A stretch of DNA of 51,880 nucleotides from Candidatus Polarisedimenticolia bacterium (GTDB lineage Bacteria > Acidobacteriota > Polarisedimenticolia > Gp22-AA2), in NCBI GenBank assembly GCA_036001465.1, contig DASYUH010000105.1, positions 1-51,880 on the forward strand, in the 5' to 3' direction. The translations under genes and the position numbers were made by a program. Of this stretch, positions 36,749 through 51,880 are shown piece after piece (positions within the stretch are counted from its first letter, which is position 1; every line of letters begins with the position of its first letter). The notes beneath the pieces are model-generated. The model was not told where the DNA came from. It searched no databases and saw only the letters and a list, made by a program, of their open reading frames with translations.

Positions 36749-38692
36749 TCACCTTACTCCAGGCCCATCCCCCCTTGTCAAGACCCCCTGGAGCAATTCT
36801 TGAGGCGTCAGTTGATCAATCCGCGATACCGCCCTCCTGGCGCCGGCGCGGCGGAGCGCGCGCGCCTGAAAGGTCGTCGCGACGCCGATGACCGCGAGAC
36901 CGGCGGCCCGCGCCGCCTGTATCCCCCCGGGAGAGTCCTCGATCGCCACGCAGCCACCCCCGCGGGGCAGTCCCAGCCGGCGCAGGGCGAGCCGGTAGCC
37001 GTCGGGGGCTGGCTTGGGCCGCCTGACATCCTCCGCCGCCACGATCACGCGGAATGCGCCTTCCAGGCGGGCCCGACGCAGGACCGCGCGGATCTCGATC
37101 CGGGTCGCCCCCGAGACGATGGCCACCGGGACGCGGCGGGCCACCTCGCGCACCAGCCGCACGGCGCGCGCGCCGATGCGGACCCCTGCCGCCAGGCGGC
37201 GGTAGGCGCCCCGTTTCTCGCGCAACAGCCTCGTCAGGGGAAGGTTCGTCCGCCCCGCGTCCTTCAGGATGGCTTCGAGCGCCGTGCGGTCGTCGAAGAC
37301 CAGATAGCGCGCGTTGTAGCGGGCGCGGGGCAAAGCGATTCCGTATTGCCACACCACCTGCCGGAAGGCGCGCCAGTGGTACGTCTCGTCGTCCACCAGC
37401 ACGCCGTTGAAGTCGAACAGGACGGCGCGCGCGGCGGCCTCCCTGCCGGCGCCCGGACCCCGACGCGCTCCGCCGTCGCGCGCCTCGACCGACCGGCGGT
37501 GCGCCTCCAGTCCCTCCAGCCGGGCGAGGTGGCGCGCCGCCGGCGCCAGGCGCCGGGCCCCGGAGGCGGAGACCTGCTGCACGGTCGTCACCCTGAGAAA
37601 GCGCAGGACGGACAGGCCGCCGGTCGCGCGGGCCCCTCCCGCCGTCGGCAGGATGTGGTTCGGTCCGGCGACGTAGTCGCCGAAGGCCACGGCCGAGAAT
37701 CCCCCCAGGAAGAGGGAGCCGTAGTTGTGCAGCAGCGGCACGAGCCGCCGCGGCGAGGCGGTCTGGATCGACAGGTGCTCCGGGGCGACGCGGTCCGCCT
37801 GGCGGCAGGCCTCCTCGATCGACCGGCACGAGCGCACGCGCAGGTTCCGGAGGGCCGCGGTCGCCGCATCCCGGTTCGGGCTGCCGGCCGGCAGGAGGCG
37901 GGTCAGCCGGCGGATCGCGCGCAGGAACCTGCCGGCCACGCCAGCCCCCAGGACGACCAGCCAGAGACGCGCATCCGGGTCGTGCTCCGCCTGAGCCAGG
38001 AGGTCGGACGCCGCCCAGTCGGGGTCGGCCGTCCTGTCCGCGATCACCAGGAGCTCGCTAGGGCCGGCATGGAAATCGATCCCGACCCGGCCGGCCACCA
38101 GGCGCTTGGCGGCGGCGACGTAGCGGTTGCCGGGACCGACGATCAGGTCGACCGTTGGGACGGTGCGGGTGCCGAACGCCATGGCGGCGATCGCCTGCGC
38201 TCCGCCGACGGCGAACACCCGGTCCACGCCGGCCACCTCCGCCGCCGCCAGGATCTCCGGGGCCGGGAGGCCGTCCCGACCCGGCGGCGTGCAGAGGACC
38301 ACGCGGCGGCAGCCGGCGACGCGCGCCGGCACGGCCCCCATCAGGACGGTCGAGCAGAGGGGATGCCGGCCGCCGGGCACGTACACCCCGACGCTGTCGA
38401 TCGGCACGAGACGTTGCTCCAAGTTGATCCCCTTTTCCCGGTGCCGGAAGGGGCGGAGGGAACGCTTCTGCATGCGGGCGAAGGCGGCGATCCGGCGCGC
38501 CGCCAGCCGCAGCGCCGCCCGGGTCGCCGCATCCACGCTTCGAGCGCCCCGGCGCCGTTCGGCGGCGGAGACTTCGATCGACGCGCGGCCGGCGCCGTCG
38601 AACCGGCGCGTCAGGCGGCGCAGGGCCGCGTCCCCCTCGAGGCGCACCTGCTCGAGAATCCGCGCCACGGCCCGGTCGGGCGCCTCCCTCAT
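36749..38692 (-). CDS. hisD: Histidinol dehydrogenase fused to a HAD phosphatase-like domain
   Basis: The 647-residue protein has two parts. Residues 1-405 are HisD, which oxidises histidinol to histidine with NAD+. Zinc ligands Gln234, His237, Asp339 and His398 and the catalytic pair Glu305-His306 have the family spacing. Residues 420-640 are a HAD subfamily IA (beta-PGM-like) domain with Asp427 in FDFNGVLVDDE, Ser527, Lys560 in RRPKPAPDG and Glu585-Asp586. The normal second Asp of motif I is Asn429, so catalysis needs testing. No other histidinol-phosphate phosphatase is in the operon (HisB lacks one), and this step comes just before HisD, so the fused domain is the best candidate. No in-frame start separates the domains. 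Its start overlaps the hisAIE stop (ATGA). The HAD activity is inferred. Confidence 0.9.
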   Translation of the reverse strand: MREAPDRAVARILEQVRLEGDAALRRLTRRFDGAGRASIEVSAAERRRGARSVDAATRAALRLAARRIAAFARMQKRSLRPFRHREKGINLEQRLVPIDSVGVYVPGGRHPLCSTVLMGAVPARVAGCRRVVLCTPPGRDGLPAPEILAAAEVAGVDRVFAVGGAQAIAAMAFGTRTVPTVDLIVGPGNRYVAAAKRLVAGRVGIDFHAGPSELLVIADRTADPDWAASDLLAQAEHDPDARLWLVVLGAGVAGRFLRAIRRLTRLLPAGSPNRDAATAALRNLRVRSCRSIEEACRQADRVAPEHLSIQTASPRRLVPLLHNYGSLFLGGFSAVAFGDYVAGPNHILPTAGGARATGGLSVLRFLRVTTVQQVSASGARRLAPAARHLARLEGLEAHRRSVEARDGGARRGPGAGREAAARAVLFDFNGVLVDDETYHWRAFRQVVWQYGIALPRARYNARYLVFDDRTALEAILKDAGRTNLPLTRLLREKRGAYRRLAAGVRIGARAVRLVREVARRVPVAIVSGATRIEIRAVLRRARLEGAFRVIVAAEDVRRPKPAPDGYRLALRRLGLPRGGGCVAIEDSPGGIQAARAAGLAVIGVATTFQARALRRAGARRAVSRIDQLTPQELLQGVLTRGDGPGVR

Positions 38693-39975
38693 CGGTGCCG
38701 TCCCCGCAGCTCCGCCTCGACCTCGTCGAGCCCGATCCCCTCCGCCTCCATCAGCACGGTGGCGTGATAGAAGAGATCGGCCAGCTCCCAGACGAGGTTT
38801 CCCCGGTCGGACGCGGAGGCGACCTCGTCCGCCTCCTCGCGCACCTTGGCCCGCAGCAGCCCCGGATCGGCAAGCAGCCGCGCCGTGTAGGAGCCGGGCG
38901 AGGCGCCGGCCGGCTCGCGGCCCGCATCCCCGGCCGCGCGGCGCGACCCGGCGGCGAGGCGCGACCCGAGGACGTGGCGCGAGGCGACGATGCGGCGCAG
39001 CGCCCGGATGTCGAAGCCCGCTCCCTCGCCGAAGCAGGTCGGCCGGCCGGAGTGGCAGGCCGGACCCGTCTGCCGCACGGTGAAGAGCAGGGCGTCGGCG
39101 TCGCAGTCGTAGCGCACTCGCAGGAGCTCCTGCGTGTGGCCGGAGGTCTCCCCTTTGCGCCACAGCGCCCGGCGCGACCGGGAGTGGTAGACCCCCCGTC
39201 TCTCGGCGAGCGCGGCGCGCAGCGACTCCACCGTGCTCCAGGCCAGCATCAGGACGCTTCCGTCCTGGTCGCGGGCGATGGTCGGGAGCGGACCGCGCGT
39301 CCAGTCCGGCAGGCTCGCCGTCGCCTCGTCGAGATCGAGGCGCCCCGTGTACAGCGCCATGCCGACCTGCACGTCGACGCCCAGGCGATGCAGCCCCCGC
39401 ACGTCCTCGATGTCCCTCACTCCCCCGGCCACGGTCAGCGGGAGGGAGGTCGACCTCTGCAGCTCGCGCACGGGATCGAGGGGCGTTCCCTCGAGCGTCC
39501 CCTCGACCTCCACCTGGGTGAACAGGAACCCGGAGCAGTAGGCCTCCAGGCGCCGCGCCCGATCGCACGGGGTCTCTCCCGTGTCGCGCCGCCATCCCTG
39601 GTCGACCGTGCGGCCCTGGCGCGCGTCGAGCGCCACCATCAGCCAGTCGGGCGGGAAGCGCTGCAGGAATCCGGGTTCGGCCGCCGTCCCGAGGATGACG
39701 CGGGTGGCCCCCGCCTTGATCAGGTCGACGACGTCCGCTTCGCGTCGGACCCCCCCGCCGACGCGGCAGGGGGCGGCGCGGCACAGGCGCCGCACCAGCT
39801 CGCGGTTGTCGTCGCGACCGAACGCGGCGTCGAGATCGACGACCGCGACCTCGCCATGGAAGGCGAAACGCCGGGCCAGGTCGAGCGGGTCCTCGGACGA
39901 CTCGAGGAGGCGCTCCGTGCCGCGGCGCAGCTGCACCGCGCGCCCCCCCATCAGGTCGATGCTCGGGATGATCAT
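38689..39975 (-). CDS. hisAIE: Triple fusion HisA-HisI-HisE
   Basis: The 428-residue protein joins three enzymes of histidine synthesis. Residues 1-213 are HisA (isomerisation of ProFAR to PRFAR), a TIM barrel with catalytic Asp7 (IPSIDL) and Asp117 (VALDAR). Residues 222-316 are HisI (PR-AMP cyclohydrolase) with Zn ligands Cys291, Cys307 and Cys314 (DCDADAL; ACHSGRPTC). Residues 320-425 are HisE (PR-ATP pyrophosphatase) with EEADEVASA and LVWELADLFYH. HisI-HisE fusions are common; addition of HisA is unusual. HisE and HisI carry out the two steps before HisA, so consecutive intermediates might be channelled. It starts 28 nt after the hisHF stop. Confidence 0.92.
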   Translation of the reverse strand: MIIPSIDLMGGRAVQLRRGTERLLESSEDPLDLARRFAFHGEVAVVDLDAAFGRDDNRELVRRLCRAAPCRVGGGVRREADVVDLIKAGATRVILGTAAEPGFLQRFPPDWLMVALDARQGRTVDQGWRRDTGETPCDRARRLEAYCSGFLFTQVEVEGTLEGTPLDPVRELQRSTSLPLTVAGGVRDIEDVRGLHRLGVDVQVGMALYTGRLDLDEATASLPDWTRGPLPTIARDQDGSVLMLAWSTVESLRAALAERRGVYHSRSRRALWRKGETSGHTQELLRVRYDCDADALLFTVRQTGPACHSGRPTCFGEGAGFDIRALRRIVASRHVLGSRLAAGSRRAAGDAGREPAGASPGSYTARLLADPGLLRAKVREEADEVASASDRGNLVWELADLFYHATVLMEAEGIGLDEVEAELRGRHR

Positions 39976-40003
39976 GGTCTGGCTCGCGCCCGGGCGGTCG
40001 ATC

Positions 40004-41452
40004 TCACAGCCGCACCCTGACGCCGGCGAGACGCAGGGCCTCCTTCGCATGCCTGATCGACACGCTCCCGTCGTGGAACATGGAGGCCGCGAGCGCCGCG
40101 TCGGCTTCTCCCTCCCGAAGGACACGAGCCATGTCGAGGGGCGTGCCGGCGCCCCCCGAGGCGATGACCGGAAGGCGCACGGCGCGGGCCACCCGGCGCG
40201 TCAGATCCGTATCGTAGCCCCCCCGCGTCCCGTCCGCGTCCATGGCGTTCAGGAGGATCTCCCCCGCCCCCAGGCGCTCCGCCTCGCGGGCCCACTGGAC
40301 GGCGTCCATGCCTGTGCCGCGCCGCCCGCCGTGGGTGGTGGCTTCGAAGCCGGCGTTCCGGCGGCGGGCATCGATCGACACGACGACGAACTGGCTGCCG
40401 AAGGCGGCGGCCGCCCGCGCGATCAACGCTGGATCCTCCCAGGCGGCCGTGCCGATCGACACCCGATCGGCGCCGGCCAGGAGCAGCGCGCGCATCTCCT
40501 CGACCGTGCGGATGCCGCCGCCGACCGTGAACGGCACCGTCAGTCGCGCGGCCACCCGTCCGACGAGATCCAGGAGCGGCCAGCGCTCCTCCTGCGATGC
40601 CGACACGTCGAGCAGGCAGACCTCGTCGGCCCCGTCCCGATCGTACGCGCCTGCCCTCTCGACCGGATCGCCGGCGTCCCTCAGATCCCGGAACTTGACC
40701 CCCTTCACGACGCGTCCATTCTTGATGTCGAGGCAGGGAATGACCCGGCGAAGCCGGCCGCCGGCGGTCGGATGTCCCGCGAGAGCGGAGCGCGCCGTGG
40801 CGCCGGTCGCCGCGATGTCTCGTGCCGTGACCGGCGCTCCGCTGCGGGCAGGGGCCAGGGCCGCGAAGCGGGCCAGGATCCGGCGGCCGCACTCCGAGCT
40901 CTTCTCGGGATGGAATTGCGCGCCCCAGGTCGCGCCGCGGGCGACCGCGGCCGCGAACGGCGCGGGCCCCAGGGTCAGGGCGGCGGCGCGTTCGTCGTCC
41001 GGCGTCACGGCGTAGGTGTGCGCGAAATAGGCGTCGAAGCGCTCCGGCATCTCTTCGAAGAGCGTCCCGGGCCCCCGGAGGAGGGGCGCGACCGCCGCCC
41101 AGCCGATGTGCGGCAGCGGCCGCATCGCAAGGCGCCGCACGCGACCCGGCAGGAGGCCGAGGCCCGCATCGTCCGGATCCTCGTCGCTCGCCTCGAACAG
41201 CAGGTGCATCCCGAGGCAGATGCCCAGGAACGGCCGCCCGGAGAGGGCGAATTCGCGCAAGGGCCCGGCGAGCCCCGTCTCCCGGAGGCGCCGCGCGGCG
41301 GGCCCGAACCGCCCGACCCCCGGCAGGATCAGCCGCGCCACCCCCTCGAGATCGGCCGGACCGGCAACCGGCCTCCACGGGGCCTCGAGACGATCGAGCG
41401 CCGCCTGGACATTTCTCAGGTTGCCCGCGCCATAGTCCACCACCCCGATCAT
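40004..41452 (-). CDS. hisHF: Imidazole glycerol phosphate synthase, HisH-HisF fusion
   Basis: The 482-residue protein combines both subunits of IGP synthase. Residues 1-200 are HisH, the glutaminase (triad Cys79 in LGICLGM, His181 and Glu183 in QFHPEKSS). Residues 234-482 are HisF, the cyclase TIM barrel ([17 protein letters not shown]) with catalytic Asp242 and Asp361. A short linker (about 201-233) joins them. This order is the one of eukaryotic HIS7; most bacteria keep the subunits separate. Ammonia would pass from HisH into the HisF barrel, forming IGP and AICAR. The ATG overlaps the hisB stop by 4 nt (ATGA), so translation is coupled. Confidence 0.93.
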
Positions 41453-42045
41453 TCGAGCCTCCCCTTCGTGCTCGGGACGAGGCCGCGATAGCGGCCGTCC
41501 CGGCTCGCGGCCAGCTTCACCGACTTGCCGACCGCCTTGAAGATCGCCTCGGCCTTGTGATGATCGTTCCATCCGTACGGCAGGACGACGTGCAGGTCGG
41601 CCATCAGGCCGCGCGTCAGCCCGCGCAGGAATTCCGGGATGGTGTCGGTCTCGAGATCGCCCACCCGGACGCGCCGGAAGCGGGCCCTCAGGACGAGGGA
41701 CGGCCGGCCGCCGAGGTCGAGCGCCGCCAGGGCCAGCGACTCCTCCATCGGGAAGGCGAAGTACCCCGTCCTCTCGATCCCCTTGCGGTCCCCCAGCGCC
41801 CGGCGCAGGGCCTGCCCGAGCACGATGCCGCAGTCCTCCACCAGGTGGTGCTGGTCGACGTGCAGGTCCCCCCGCGCCTCGACCTCGAGATCGAGCCCGC
41901 CGTGCAGCGCCAGCGCCGTCAGCATGTGGTCGAAGAAGCCGATGCCGGTCCGGACCCGGACGCGGCCGCGTCCCTCGATCGCCAGGGCGAGACGGATGTC
42001 GGTCTCCTTCGTCGTGCGGCGCAGGCGGGCGGTGCGTCTTCTCAT
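41449..42045 (-). CDS. hisB: Imidazoleglycerol-phosphate dehydratase
   Basis: A 198-residue IGP dehydratase that makes imidazole acetol phosphate. The Mn-binding histidine motifs are intact: [18 protein letters not shown] and [11 protein letters not shown]. It is the dehydratase only; the N-terminal HAD phosphatase of bifunctional HisB from enterobacteria is absent. Histidinol-phosphate dephosphorylation must therefore come from elsewhere, probably the HAD domain fused to HisD at the operon's end. The start overlaps the hisC stop by 4 nt (ATGA), and its stop overlaps the hisHF start. Confidence 0.95.
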
Positions 42046-43145
42046 CGCGCCTCCTCCCCGCCTGCTCCGGCGGTCTCCCTCGCCTCGGCCAGCGCGGGGG
42101 CGAGGGCCGCCAGGAACGCGCCGACCTGCTCCCGCGTCCCGACCCCGATGCGCAGCGTGCCGCGCAGGAGCGGATGATCGCTCCGATCCCGCACCAGGAC
42201 ACCGCGGGACCGCAGCGCTTCGCGGATGGCGGGCGCCCGCTCTCCGAAGCGCGCCACGAGAAAATTGGCGGCGCTCGGATAGGTCGGGATGTCGAGCGCG
42301 CGCAGCGCCGCCTCGAGGTCCCCCCGCGCGGCGCGCACCTCGGCGGCGTAGCGCGTCATCCAGGCCTCGTCCTCGAGCGCCGCCGTCAGGGCCAGCAGGG
42401 CGATGGAGTTGACCGCGTAAGGCGATCGCATGCGCGCCACCCAGCGCAGCGTCGCCCGGTCCCCCAGGAGGACGCCGGCGCGCAGCCCGGCGAGGCCGTA
42501 GGCCTTGGAAAACGTCCGGGCGACGATCAGGTTCGGCAGGCGGCCGAGCGCGGCGACCGACGAGTGGCCGGCGAACTCGGCGTACGCCTCGTCGGCGAGG
42601 ACGATGGCCTCGGGGCAGGCCGCCGCCAGCTCCTCGACGAACCCCGCGGGAGCCGGCGCGCCGGTCGGATTGTGCGGATTCCCCACGATGACGAGCCGGC
42701 AGCCGGCGGCCGCCGCCCGAAGCCGAGCCGCCGGGAACGACAGGTCCTGGTTGCAGTCCACGCTCACGATGTCCGCTCCGGCGAGCGTCGCGTAGAACCG
42801 ATGCATCGCGTAGCCCGGATCGACGAGGACCACCTTGTCTCCGGCCCGCACGAAACAGTCGCACACGAGGCGGATCCCTTCGTCGACTCCGGAGGTCAGG
42901 ACGAGTTCGAGCTCCGACCGCCGGTCGAGACCGAAATGGCCCGCCACCGCGGCGCGCGCCTCGGTCTCGTCCGGGTAGAGGGAGATGTCCTCGATCGCGA
43001 TGCGGCGAAGCCGCTCGAGCACCCGGGGGGAAGGCCCGAGCAGGCTCTCGTTGAAGTCGAGCCGCAGGAATTCCTGCCGCCCCGCGGCCGGCACCGTGTA
43101 GGGCTTCAGGCGCGCCACGTCGGGCGTCGGATCGGGGGGGCTCAC
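42042..43145 (-). CDS. hisC: Histidinol-phosphate aminotransferase
   Basis: This PLP enzyme, class II aminotransferase family, converts imidazole acetol phosphate plus glutamate to histidinol phosphate. The 367-residue protein has [18 protein letters not shown] and the PLP lysine Lys214 in [14 protein letters not shown]; the C-terminal RIGVGT carries the phosphate-binding arginine. Two GTG starts are possible. The one at 43145 has GGGAGAAGG just upstream and fits homology; the other at 43175 overlaps the hisG stop (GTGA). Each sits in one copy of an 11-bp direct repeat, ATCCCGTGAGC, 30 nt apart. Confidence 0.94.
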
Positions 43146-43171
43146 GGGATCCTTCTCCCGGCGGCGCCCGC

Positions 43172-44062
43172 TCACGGGATCACCTTCTCGAGGGCGCAGG
43201 CGATGAGATCGGTCGCGCCGGCCTGCCGCAGGCGCAGGATCACGCCCGGCAGCCCGTCGCGCGGCACCGCCGCCTTCACGGCGTACCCCTGGCCGCCGTA
43301 GAGCTCCTGGATGGTCGGCGACTTCATCGCCGGCAGCACGTCCACGACCGCCGCCAGCCTGTCGCGCGCCACGTTCATCTCCAAAAGGACGCGCCGCCGC
43401 CCCTCGAGCGCCGCCTGCATCATGGTCCGGAGCATCTCGATGCGCTCCGCCTTCGCCCCGTCGTCCAGCGCGGCGCGCGACGCGACGAAGCGGGTGGACG
43501 ATTTCAGGACCTCGTCCACCACGACGAGGTGGTTCTCGCGCAGGGTCGTGCCGGTCGCGACGAGGTCGAGGATCATGTCGGCGTCCTCGGGAGGAAAGAC
43601 CTCCGTCGCGCCGAAGGTGCGGATGAACACGCAGGGCACGCCCCGCCCGTCGAGGTACCGGCGCGTGATCGTCTCGTACTCCGACGCGACGATGAGCGGA
43701 CGGCCGGGGGGCGCCTCGCCGGGTCGCAATCCGGCCGGCGCGAGCGCCTCGGCGGCGCCCGTCTCGGGGACCGCCGCGACCAGGGTCACCGGGTCGAGGC
43801 CGGTGTCGAGCACCTGGACCACGTCGGCGCCGCTCTCCACGACCCAGTCGTGGCCGGTGAAGCCGCAGTCGTGCGCCCCGATCTCGATGAGCCTCGGAAT
43901 GTTCTGGGGCTTCAGGTACTTCGCCTCGATTCCCGTCTCGGCGACCTGCGGGCGGTACGATCGCCCGTTGCTGCGGACCGGGAGGCCGGCGGCGGCGAGG
44001 AGCTTGACGACTTCGTCGGTGATCCTTCCCTTCGGAAGGGCCAATCTGAGCATCGGTGGCAT
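43172..44062 (-). CDS. hisG: ATP phosphoribosyltransferase, long form
   Basis: This is the first and committed step of histidine synthesis, joining ATP and PRPP to PR-ATP. The 296-residue protein has the catalytic HisG domain (LRLALPKGRITDEVV at the start; DLVATGTTLRENHL) and the C-terminal HisG_C/ACT-like domain (about 220-296, VLLEMNVARDRLAAVVDVLPAMKSPTIQELYG). That domain defines the long form, which is feedback-regulated by histidine and needs no HisZ. It is the first gene of the operon. No clear promoter or histidine leader peptide was seen upstream. Confidence 0.95.
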   Translation of the reverse strand: MPPMLRLALPKGRITDEVVKLLAAAGLPVRSNGRSYRPQVAETGIEAKYLKPQNIPRLIEIGAHDCGFTGHDWVVESGADVVQVLDTGLDPVTLVAAVPETGAAEALAPAGLRPGEAPPGRPLIVASEYETITRRYLDGRGVPCVFIRTFGATEVFPPEDADMILDLVATGTTLRENHLVVVDEVLKSSTRFVASRAALDDGAKAERIEMLRTMMQAALEGRRRVLLEMNVARDRLAAVVDVLPAMKSPTIQELYGGQGYAVKAAVPRDGLPGVILRLRQAGATDLIACALEKVIP

Positions 44063-48294: not shown

Positions 48295-48304
48295 ATTGTG
48301 CCCC

Positions 48305-49492
48305 TCATGATATTCGTCCCGCATAATGGAGCGTAATCGGTGGAGTAACGCGCCTGCTTCGGATGAGTAGATAACCGCGTTCGATCAAGGCACGGCTGAG
48401 GGCGACGCGGTCGATGGACGCCCGGAGCCAGTGTGAACGAAGCTTCCATGAAGGGATCTGGCGCTCGGCGCATTCGCGTTCTCTGTGGTGATCATACGCC
48501 GAGCGGAACAGCCGTGCATCGTTTTCGGTGATGGGAGTGCGGGCTTCCCACGCCGCCTCGGGCGTGGGGCCGCCCAGTCCCCAAGGGTGTGCCGTGTCGT
48601 TCGCCTGGCGACGCGCAGCGGCGACATCATCGCAGGTCCATTGCCCGGTCCGGTCGTGTCGCGCCGACTGGTAGAAGGCGCGCACCTCGAGCGAGCCGAT
48701 ACCGGCCTCGACACTCCCGTTGTAGGCCGGCGTGCCCGGAGGAGAGAACAGGGCGAACACGCGGTGTTCCCGGAGCAACGTCCCGACCTCCCACGAGAGG
48801 AAGGCGGATCCGTTGTCCATCTTGATCACCAGGGGCCGGCCCTCGTGCTCGAAGAGCATGCGCAACGCGTCCACGACGACCCGGGCGCCCTCGCCCTCGC
48901 ACGGCATGGCCAGCATCTGCCGGCCGCTGGCCAGGTCACGCACCAGAAGCAGATAGCGATACTGTCCGTCGATCGGCGCGGGCGGTTCGGTGAAGTCCAT
49001 GGCCCACACCGTGCCGGGACGGGTCCAGCGCAGGGTATGAACGAGCCACCGCCTGCGTCGCCGGTACACCGACCGGCAACGCTCGAGGAGATGGTCGAGT
49101 TCGGCCCGGGCTACCTGGGGGAACAGGTCCCGCAGGGCCGCCAGGCTGGCGTGCGGCCCCATCAGCGAGAAGACCCCCAGGATGTCCGCGCGGGTCTCGC
49201 GGTCGAGGTCCTCGACCGGCCGGCCGCGCGGCCTCAACGTCATGCGGTCCTCTTTCCAGCGACGCATCCAGCGCGAGAGCGCCGACAACGACAGGGCCAG
49301 GCGGCGGGCGCTGGCCGACCGGGTCTCGCCATGGCACTCCAGCCAGCGAGCGAACGCGACGGCGGAACGCCGCGCGGTGCGCTCCGCCTGGCGCGCTCGC
49401 CGCTGACGCCTCGGCCCGCGCCGCCGGCGATCCCGCCGACTCTCCGTCTGGTCCTGCACGATGCTCTCCAGTCGTCCGACGTGCCGCCTCAA
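48305..49492 (-). CDS. Element gene D: DDE (rve) recombinase
   Basis: A 395-residue integrase-core protein. An N-terminal helix-turn-helix part (SASARRLALSLSALSRWMRRW, about 60-80) precedes the catalytic core with Asp in WAMDFTEPP, Asp in VIKMDNGSAF and Glu in NGSVEAGIGSLE, the DDE triad. The start is a TTG overlapping the gene C stop (TTGA). The last codons run through the left inverted repeat, and the stop lies just outside, so the reading frame crosses the element's end. It differs clearly from gene A's recombinase. Function: cut-and-paste or copy-type transposition (inferred). Confidence 0.85.
   Translation of the reverse strand: MRRHVGRLESIVQDQTESRRDRRRRGPRRQRRARQAERTARRSAVAFARWLECHGETRSASARRLALSLSALSRWMRRWKEDRMTLRPRGRPVEDLDRETRADILGVFSLMGPHASLAALRDLFPQVARAELDHLLERCRSVYRRRRRWLVHTLRWTRPGTVWAMDFTEPPAPIDGQYRYLLLVRDLASGRQMLAMPCEGEGARVVVDALRMLFEHEGRPLVIKMDNGSAFLSWEVGTLLREHRVFALFSPPGTPAYNGSVEAGIGSLEVRAFYQSARHDRTGQWTCDDVAAARRQANDTAHPWGLGGPTPEAAWEARTPITENDARLFRSAYDHHRERECAERQIPSWKLRSHWLRASIDRVALSRALIERGYLLIRSRRVTPPITLHYAGRIS
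48308..48348 (+). repeat. Left terminal inverted repeat
   Basis: The last 14 bp (48335-48348) are a perfect match to the right end's inverse; more scattered identity (ATTCGTC, CAT, GAG) extends outward to about 48308. Confidence 0.75.
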
Positions 49493-49902
49493 CCGCCGCT
49501 GCCAGGCGCTGCAGGCCCTGTTGGCTTCTTCCGGCGCCGGGAGTTTTTTTTACTCCGGAACAGCTCCGGCATCGCCAGCGCCAACTCGGTGCGCACCAGC
49601 GCCGCCTGCAGATCCACTTCCAGCTCCTGGATGCGACCTTCCAGTTCTTTCTCCCGCGCGGTCCTGGTCTCCGCCGTCGCCGGCCGCCCAGCCGGCTTCG
49701 GCATCAACGCCCCCAGCGCACCCTCCAGAGCCTCCCGCCTGAGCTCGTGCAGCCGCGACTCACTGACTCCAAGCTCTTCGCACGCCTGCGCCACGCTCAC
49801 CCGGCCGGACAGAGTGTCCAGGAGAACCCGCAGCCGGCGCTTGAGGTCCTCCGGCCCCTCCAATCGATCCACGTGCCCCACGCCTTCGGGCGGCCGGCTC
49901 AT
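49489..49902 (-). CDS. Element gene C: helix-turn-helix/coiled-coil protein
   Basis: A 137-residue protein with an N-terminal helix-turn-helix (LSGRVSVAQACEELGVSESRLHELR, about 28-52) and a predicted coiled coil (KELEGRIQELEVDLQAALVRTELALA). The tail is basic. It looks like a paralogue of gene B: both read LGVS-R-LxRxALEG-xxAL-P-P-G-R and then a coil. Its ATG overlaps the gene B stop (ATGA) and its stop overlaps the gene D start. It is probably a DNA-binding accessory subunit of the transposition complex. Confidence 0.75.
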   Translation of the reverse strand: MSRPPEGVGHVDRLEGPEDLKRRLRVLLDTLSGRVSVAQACEELGVSESRLHELRREALEGALGALMPKPAGRPATAETRTAREKELEGRIQELEVDLQAALVRTELALAMPELFRSKKNSRRRKKPTGPAAPGSGG

Positions 49903-50375
49903 CGGTTCGACTCTGGTGCGGCCGCTGTCGGTCCCGACTCCGGTGCCGGCGCCCGCAACAAGGCCATCGCCTTCACCGCCCTCACTTGCGGCCGGCGCCG
50001 CCGGCGCTTGTCTCCCTTCCCCTTGTCCCGCGACGGCGGGGGCGGCAGCCCCATCGTCCGCTGCGCCGCACGCACCAGCGCCTGCAACCGCCCCATCTCC
50101 CGCTGCAGCCTCGCCTTCTCCCGCCCCGCCTCTTGCAGCGCGTCCTCGGGCCGCCGTCTCTTTCCCTTCGGCCGCGGCTGAAGCGCCTGCACCATCCCCT
50201 CCAGCGCCCGCCGCTCCAGCACGTAGTACCGCATCGCCGAGACCCCCAAAGCCTCCGAGGCCTCCGTCGGCGTCCGCAGCCCCGCCAGCACCTCCAGGAT
50301 CAATGCCGCGCTGCGCTTCGGCCCCGCGTCTCCTGTCAACGGCCGCGCTTGTGGCCGTATCCCCTTCGTGCTCAT
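49899..50375 (-). CDS. Element gene B: helix-turn-helix/coiled-coil protein
   Basis: A 158-residue protein with a helix-turn-helix (LAGLRTPTEASEALGVSAMRYYVLERR, about 29-55) and a coil (REKARLQREMGRLQALVRAAQ), then a Lys/Arg-rich segment and a Pro/Ala-rich tail. It is similar in layout and key residues to gene C. The ATG at 50375 overlaps the gene A stop (ATGA). It probably binds element DNA or one of the recombinases. Confidence 0.75.
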   Translation of the reverse strand: MSTKGIRPQARPLTGDAGPKRSAALILEVLAGLRTPTEASEALGVSAMRYYVLERRALEGMVQALQPRPKGKRRRPEDALQEAGREKARLQREMGRLQALVRAAQRTMGLPPPPSRDKGKGDKRRRRRPQVRAVKAMALLRAPAPESGPTAAAPESNR

Positions 50376-51796
50376 GCCTCACCTCCCTCGCCCTCCACAA
50401 CCGGCGCTCTCCGGCCCGGCGCCGTCAGGTCCACCTCCTGCCGGCCACCTTCCGTCGTCTGCACCACCAGCTTCCCACCCTCCCCGTGCAGCGTGATCCC
50501 TGCTTCTCCCACACGCCCGGTCAGGTACACGCTCTGCCGCGGCGTCCCGTGACGCGCCACGTCCAGGGCGTTCGCCTCGACTCGCTTCTTCAGCGTCTCC
50601 AGAACCTGCGGCGCCGCCGAGAAGTACCGGTCCGCCGGCACCAGCCCCTCCAGGCCCTGGTGCGTCCTCTGGAAGTTGTAGTAGTCGATGTACAACCCGA
50701 TCCGCCGGCGTGCATCGTCCAGGCCTTGGAACACCGCCTTCTCCACGCACTCCCGCCACAGCGTCCCCCAGAACCGCTCGATCTTCCCCAAGGTCTGCGG
50801 GTGCCGCGCCCGGGCCAAGAGCTGCCGGATCCCCCGACGCGCGCACAGCCGCGCGAACTCGCTCGTCCCACGCCACGTGTGATACTGCGGCCCCTGGTCC
50901 GTCAACACCTCCTCCGGCGCCCCGTAGTTCGCGATCGCCGCCTCCAACACCTCCCGCACCAGGCCCCCCGACGACGACCCGTACAGCCCATACCCCACGA
51001 TGTACCGGCTGTGGTCGTCCATGAACCCCACCAGGTACAACCGCCGTCCCTCCCGCTTCAAAAGGAACGTGAACAGATCCGATTGCCACAGCTGGTTCGG
51101 CCTCGCCCGCTCGAACTCCCGCGGCTTGTCCGGGTGCCGCTCCGTCGCTCGCTCCTCGCTCTCGTACCCGGCCTCCCGCAGCACCCGCGCCACCGCCCCT
51201 GAACTCGCCGCGAACCCCTCCGAGCGCAACAGCATGTCGTGGATCCGATCGCACCCCCACTCCTCGTGCTGCCTCTTCATCATCAGGATCGCACGCTTCG
51301 TCGCCTCCGGCATCCGGCTCCCCGCAGGCGCTCCCCGCCGCTTCTCGTCCAGCCCCGCCGGCCCCAGGAGCTCGAAGCGCTTCTTCCAGGCGTACAACGT
51401 GTGCGCCGACACACCCGCGATCTTCCCGAACGCCCCGGCCGTCAGCTCCGACCTCCCCCAGGCATCCAGGATCAACAACCGCTGCTCGCCACTCAAGGAC
51501 ACCCCTTCCACGCCCGGCTGAGGCTCCTCCTCCACCACACGCCGTAGCGGTCCTCCCTTTCTCCGCCCCGTCAGGATCGGTGGCGCCGGCTCCTCTTCCG
51601 TCTCAGCTTCCGACACGGGCACCTCGTCCTCCGGCCCCTCGATCGCCGGCATCACCACCTCCCGTGTCGTGATCCCGGTTCCCGGCTCACCGAACAACCG
51701 CGGTGCTCGACGCTCTTCTTCGTCCCCAGTCTGCGACGCCAACTCCTCCGGGCGCACCTCGACCTCGTCGGACTCTCCATCGTTCCGCTCCCACAT
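50372..51796 (-). CDS. Element gene A: DDE (rve) recombinase
   Basis: A 474-residue recombinase and the first gene of the element. An acidic, low-complexity N-terminus (about 1-95) is followed by helix-turn-helix parts (AFGKIAGVSAHTLYAWKKRF; WGCDRIHDMLLRSEGFAASSGAVARVLREAGY) and an rve core with Asp in WQSDLFTFL, Asp in VLTDQGPQY and Glu in GKIERFWGTLWRE. The C-terminal beta domain (about 410-474) resembles those of Mu-type integrases. GGGAGGACGGG precedes the ATG. Relation to IS481/IS3-type cores is clear, but partner genes B to D set it apart. Confidence 0.85.
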   Translation of the reverse strand: MWERNDGESDEVEVRPEELASQTGDEEERRAPRLFGEPGTGITTREVVMPAIEGPEDEVPVSEAETEEEPAPPILTGRRKGGPLRRVVEEEPQPGVEGVSLSGEQRLLILDAWGRSELTAGAFGKIAGVSAHTLYAWKKRFELLGPAGLDEKRRGAPAGSRMPEATKRAILMMKRQHEEWGCDRIHDMLLRSEGFAASSGAVARVLREAGYESEERATERHPDKPREFERARPNQLWQSDLFTFLLKREGRRLYLVGFMDDHSRYIVGYGLYGSSSGGLVREVLEAAIANYGAPEEVLTDQGPQYHTWRGTSEFARLCARRGIRQLLARARHPQTLGKIERFWGTLWRECVEKAVFQGLDDARRRIGLYIDYYNFQRTHQGLEGLVPADRYFSAAPQVLETLKKRVEANALDVARHGTPRQSVYLTGRVGEAGITLHGEGGKLVVQTTEGGRQEVDLTAPGRRAPVVEGEGGEA

Positions 51797-51841
51797 CCCG
51801 TCCTCCCGTTCGCGGCCTCCGGCCGCTCCAGGAAGCAGGAA

Positions 51842-51880
51842 TTACTCCACCGATTTATCTCTTAAATGAAAGACGAATTT
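51842..51880 (-). repeat. Right terminal inverted repeat (cut by window end)
   Basis: TTACTCCACCGATT (51842-51855) is the inverse of the left block. The remainder to 51880 keeps CTC, ATG and GACGAAT in register with the left end. The very end is not visible. Confidence 0.7.

Follow-up and report, generated by a model that had tools for sequence, protein, structure and literature searches.

The transpososomes of DDE transposons normally contain one recombinase. The second nuclease of Tn7, TnsA, is not a DDE enzyme, and TnpA and TnpB, the recombinases of Tn554, are tyrosine recombinases and belong to another enzyme class. Long target site duplications (TSDs) of 15-30 nt are known in IS481/IS1202, and some insertion sequences guard against read-through transcription. 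Prokaryotic IS481 elements give TSDs of 2-15 bp, mostly 6 bp, their IS481EU relatives encode a single protein, and the TSDs of IS3 are 3-5 bp (PMC10045372). The OrfA and OrfB frames of IS3 are placed in a -1 arrangement at an A6C-type slippery site (PMC6211511). A few members of IS1202 have no detectable TSD (PMC10132070).

Here we analysed a window of 51,880 nucleotides from a Candidatus Polarisedimenticolia bacterium (contig DASYUH010000105.1), at the right end of which lie four overlapping genes, A, B, C and D. All are read on the minus strand, in the one direction given by the first-pass annotation that had singled out this locus. By sequence comparison, the transposon that they form is a conserved family with a fixed gene order A-B-C-D, and is a single unit. 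It is probably an autonomous DDE transposon with heteromeric machinery. The openly licensed literature searched yielded no account of an element with a pair of DDE recombinases of this sort. Elsewhere in the window, a cluster of genes for histidine biosynthesis, assigned as his genes by eye, occupies 38689-44062 on the minus strand.

Gene content of the element

The element and its genes are placed in the window as follows.
48297-51880, minus strand: transposon copy, with a TGT tip aligned with at least 20 relatives, and proven as a unit by the identical pair of copies in genome G882
50372-51796, minus strand: gene A, IS481-like DDE transposase with HTH and rve domains, 474 aa (Pfam, NCBIfam)
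49899-50375, minus strand: gene B, HTH/coiled-coil protein, paralogue of C, 158 aa (cross-matching profiles)
49489-49902, minus strand: gene C, HTH/coiled-coil protein, OrfA-like, 137 aa (Pfam HTH_28, 1.8e-6)
48305-49492, minus strand: gene D, second DDE recombinase, 395 aa from TTG (Pfam rve, 8.4e-13)

The presence of two unlike rve recombinases in one element, as first proposed, is borne out by Pfam, in which both A and D score as rve. Gene A combines an rve domain (1.3e-19) with HTH_32, and its best NCBIfam model is that of IS481 (NF033577), at 214.6 bits and thus below the cut-off of 224; against the IS3 family model it scores 156 bits, with a cut-off of 160. Its catalytic triad, D240/D300/E340, is kept in 37/37 relatives, and within the main four-gene clade identity to the window copy is 52-58%. 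The open frame of gene D begins at 49549. Its triad, D166/D226/E262 with DD35E spacing, is invariant in a six-sequence alignment, and across 47 D proteins and fragments its residues are kept in every non-gap cell but two, both at the first Asp. The best NCBIfam model for D is IS3, at 69.0 bits and well below the cut-off of 160, and the IS481 model gives 64.9 bits with a cut-off of 224. In a quick tree of 81 rve proteins, a single clade of A proteins falls on the IS481 side, and a distinct clade of D proteins (SH-aLRT 99) lies outside the IS3 and IS481 groups. The rows D3_L133_2761, o_L127 and o_L054 of this tree are, respectively, the A protein of L133, a decayed D and the deleted A remnant of genome G069. 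When compared with solved structures, the profiles of both A and D match the cores of retroviral integrases. Structure predictions for two sequences reached pLDDT 38 and 40, too poor for use.

Of the two smaller proteins, B gives no more than a weak HTH match in Pfam, and in NCBIfam C weakly resembles the N-terminal region of the IS3 model. Their suspected origin by duplication agrees both with the cross-matching of their profiles and with the existence of a sister group that has a single HTH gene between A and D. An AAA ATPase gene had been reported as missing, and none was present among the genes of the element in the window. The only istA and istB genes seen in any copy (L037:3200-6270, minus strand) belong to an IS21 lodged between genes C and D, and an ATPase was rejected as a component of the element on these grounds.

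The C-D junction

Start and stop codons overlap along the four genes as ATGA at A/B, ATGA at B/C and TTGA at C/D. These overlaps, which had been interpreted as translational coupling, are all present in the sequence, with the qualification that the C and D frames overlap at an A8 run in a -1 arrangement, so that their coupling is probably by frameshifting or slippage and not only by re-initiation.
49543-49551, minus strand: slippery run AAAAAAAAC, with A8 at 49544-49551; read in the C frame, it contains the heptamer A AAA AAC

Relative to C, gene D has a frame of -1 in 22/24 informative four-gene copies; L037 was left out of this count because its IS21 makes the frame relation uninformative. 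A run of 7-9 A is found at the end of C in 17/25 four-gene copies, where about 0.3 would be expected, the background in the same loci being 0.09 runs of at least 7 A per kb. The conserved A7-A9 run together with the -1 frame of D makes a C-D fusion likely, as in the OrfAB of IS3. In the window copy and in L048, a D-frame TAA sits at the start of the A-run, so that the open part of the D frame is confined to the sequence 3' of this codon. The predicted slippery site is equally compatible with ribosomal frameshifting and with transcriptional slippage, and either may provide for expression of C-D. A search for stimulatory RNA structure 3' of the slippery run revealed nothing consistent across the copies examined. 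Frameshifting as predicted here is not universal in the family, as about a third of the four-gene copies are without the A-run. It had also been suggested that there may be a separate DNA-binding partner for each recombinase. This may be so, with C and D alone being tied to each other, by their probable frameshift fusion.

Relatives and distribution

We found about 28 four-gene copies in the host phylum, Planctomycetota and Deltaproteobacteria, at least three phylum-level groups, and ten sister elements consisting of A, a single HTH gene and D (A-X-D). When 297 genomes of the host phylum were scanned with D, full relatives were recovered at 39-51% identity, and the order A-B-C-D was also read in loci of G177, G128, G122 and G136. 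The same order is present in L048, from Deltaproteobacteria, the D of which is only 26% identical. L047 and L048 were the sole matches in scans of genome contigs with D; the viral contigs scanned contained no D, and the plasmid search gave IS3-like fragments only. Extending the search by profile to two further phyla added many more copies, chiefly in Planctomycetota (40/392 genomes). When Planctomycetota were searched with A, every A-clade locus read continued with the HTH gene or genes and then D, unless the contig ended first, and the lower-scoring matches were plain IS481 relatives. Most copies are apparently from draft or metagenome-assembled genomes. The family is widespread in Planctomycetota and related genomes, and we found no description of it in the literature searched.

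Wherever the locus was readable throughout, every A-clade element had D, bar one deleted remnant. This apparently solo A in G069 (L057) was rejected as a solo element because it is internally deleted and lacks the catalytic E. L147 and L148 were also rejected, being plain IS481-like relatives with scores far below the A clade.

The three-gene sisters (L132-L136, L139-L144) have their own TGT tips. In these, D is offset to +1 relative to the HTH gene in 5/5 checked, and the A-run is absent in 4/5. Genome G937 has three clearly different four-gene copies (L114, L145 and L146), two of a divergent lineage (A at 451 and 433 bits), a pattern that suggests repeated acquisition. In G177, a contig of 15.5 kb with a transposon copy (C99; L035, L055) overlaps itself by 249 nt, so that the transposon may reside on a circle of about 15.3 kb; the contig also holds repeated segments and a tyrosine-recombinase fragment. 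Decayed D fragments in the window's own genome (L043:6220-6906 on G000:C13, and G000:C87:14032-14247) can be read as signs of older invasions.

Element ends and the hairpin upstream of gene A

The ends of the window copy were located as follows.
48297-48354, plus strand: D-side terminal inverted repeat (TIR), TGTGCCCCTCATGATAT...TAATCGGTGGAGTAACGCGCC when read inwards from the tip (evidence: the aligned ends and the 14-mer of the inner block)
51837-51880, minus strand: A-side TIR, inner 44 of about 58 nt, its tip missing where the contig ends
51796-51840, minus strand: RNA hairpin predicted to bury the ribosome-binding site of A (z -3.64; 0/200 shuffles as stable)

Alignment of the ends of many copies defined TIRs of about 58 nt, in each of which a spacer separates a tip block from the inner block AAATCGGTGGAGTAATTCGCC. 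The tip block is TGTnctCCTCcCCGAAAT on the A side and TGTGccCctcACGaAAT on the D side, with a 5'-TGT tip, and the D-side repeat falls within the 3' end of gene D. In the window, the 14-mer AATCGGTGGAGTAA is found only at 48335-48348 (plus strand) and 51842-51855 (minus strand), with 0.06 occurrences expected within 2 mismatches, and it was not found elsewhere in the window's genome. Its sequence has diverged in distant copies, and relatives were therefore sought by protein searches. The first-pass annotation was right to place the four genes within inverted ends at both sides, but the 14-mer is merely the inner block of the repeat of about 58 nt. The annotation gave the element a span of 48308-51880; the tip on the D side lies at 48297, and that on the A side would be about 14 nt past the end of the contig, these 14 nt and the outer flank being lost from the window copy. 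In other genomes, the contigs L108, L124 and L125 start or stop exactly at the TGT tip. The limits of the element are clearest in G882, which has two copies at different places with 2 mismatches in 4286 bp. Identity of this pair begins and stops exactly at TGT...ACA, and the sole pair of ends encloses all four genes, which implies that A and D move as a single unit.

The 5' arm of the predicted hairpin begins at the inner edge of the A-side terminal repeat. Similar stability was calculated for L036 (z -4.9) and L048 (z -3.7), and values were weaker in L037, L108 and L106; in distant copies the sequence of the hairpin differs and its layout is similar. By covering the ribosome-binding site of A, the hairpin probably blocks expression from read-through transcripts, and is in this respect similar to the safeguard known from other insertion sequences.

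Insertion and target DNA

None of the 25 insertions with both tips identified (0/25) is flanked by a TSD, as tested for lengths of 3-80 nt, allowing at most 10% mismatch and shifting the tips by 0-3. A few flank matches of 3-4 nt were seen, as many as in mismatched flanks. Long TSDs of 15-30 nt were also rejected, as these tests up to 80 nt with tip offsets found none. No shared target-site consensus was evident among the flanks. In several insertions the flanks are pieces of different genes. The left flank of L120 holds a 4-alpha-glucanotransferase without its last third, and its right flank a different gene, truncated and in the opposite direction; a C5 methylase in the flank of L038 ends prematurely. 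No true empty site was recovered. On the evidence of these truncated flanking genes, it is likely that target DNA is lost on insertion.

It is somewhat unlikely that a TSD is normally made and is then lost through adjacent deletions or misassembly, in which case its absence would be uninformative on mechanism. The frequent occurrence of parts of different genes in the flanks, and the draft state of most source assemblies, would be in keeping with such secondary loss. However, 0/25 is too uniform a result for it, and the G882 pair is recent, with one copy on a 596-kb contig. We therefore favour insertion that does not generate a TSD.

Two recombinases and a proposed mechanism

The histories of A and D within the family are linked. 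Pairwise distances of A and D correlate across 28 elements (Mantel r=0.83) and within the main clade (r=0.54, p=0.0005), and the sub-lineages, main, L048-like and three-gene, recur in both the A and D clades. Co-inheritance of A and D does not prove that they act in the same step. It is unlikely that one enzyme, which would most probably be A, does all of the chemistry, with C-D as an accessory such as a regulator, target selector or co-integrate resolver. A single recombinase suffices for many functional DDE elements, and A is better conserved (52-58%, 37/37 triads) than D (38-51%). However, the D triad is kept at 26% identity between distant lineages, which argues for its catalytic use, and the rule that readable A-clade elements have D is broken only by the one deleted remnant.

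We infer instead, from the sequences, that both active sites may be used. C would be made both alone and as a C-D fusion, as IS3 makes OrfA and OrfAB. The outer and inner end blocks would be recognised by B and by C, on its own or as a portion of C-D, together with the HTH of A itself. A and C-D would share one transpososome in which both catalytic sites are used, with A or C-D possibly serving one end or strand and the other enzyme the second. Joining would differ from the fixed-stagger reaction of ordinary DDE elements; we propose that no duplication would then be made, and that some target DNA would be lost or rearranged. The hairpin over the ribosome-binding site of A would keep the system silent in read-through transcripts. 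In its complete form, this model requires two active DDE recombinases, A and frameshifted C-D, both obligatory, in an asymmetric transpososome free of ATPase, with insertion that lacks a TSD and entails target loss, and we put the chance of its holding in full at about even. If a conserved DDE pair is indeed at work, the roles of the two active sites, in first and second strand or left and right end, should be genetically separable. Such a pair also raises the question of how joining proceeds in the absence of the fixed stagger from which TSDs arise.

It is very improbable that the locus is dead or domesticated. The window's genome has a single copy, and decayed D fragments elsewhere, as would be expected of such a locus, but the four genes keep intact frames and both triads, the tips and hairpin are conserved, and the near-identical G882 copies show recent movement in another genome. 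That A and D share one element had been put at risk by the prospect of nested elements with separate ends, and it withstood this test through constant gene order, co-divergence and the shared ends in G882. A chance pairing of an IS481-type element with a neighbouring IS3-type element, whose OrfA and OrfB would be C and D, is scarcely credible: the resemblance of C-D with its slippery run to the IS3 pair, and of A to IS481, is outweighed by the lack of any recognised internal ends, the one outer pair of ends round all four genes in G882, gene order and co-divergence that hold across phyla, the position of D outside the IS3 and IS481 groups, and the A-X-D sister lineage with its single HTH gene.

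Comparison with known systems

The element fits none of IS3, IS481, IS21, Tn7 and Tn552, as had been claimed at the outset, on the basis of model cut-offs, TSDs or ATPase. It is like IS481 in the HTH and rve domains of gene A, in its best model, NF033577, and in its TGT-type ends, but here there are three further genes including a second DDE enzyme, no TSD is found, and A is below the cut-off. C-D is like IS3 in that an HTH/coiled-coil protein is encoded 5' of a -1-frame DD35E recombinase, at a putative slippery site of the A6C type. In contrast, D scores 69 bits against the 160 required and is outside the IS3 group of the tree, IS3 is without an IS481-like partner gene, and the TSD of 3-5 bp is absent in the insertions studied here. 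IS1202 shares the TGT tips and the combination of HTH and DDE domains, and also has the few members without a detectable TSD; by description, however, it has one large transposase and TIRs of 24-26 bp, whereas here there are two DDE genes and ends of about 58 nt. Tn7-like elements and IS21 also have an rve recombinase working with partner proteins, and TGT ends. The present element differs from these and from Tn552 in being without istB or a TnsC-like AAA ATPase, and its best models are IS481 and IS3. The presence of two different recombinases within one element is a feature shared with Tn554.
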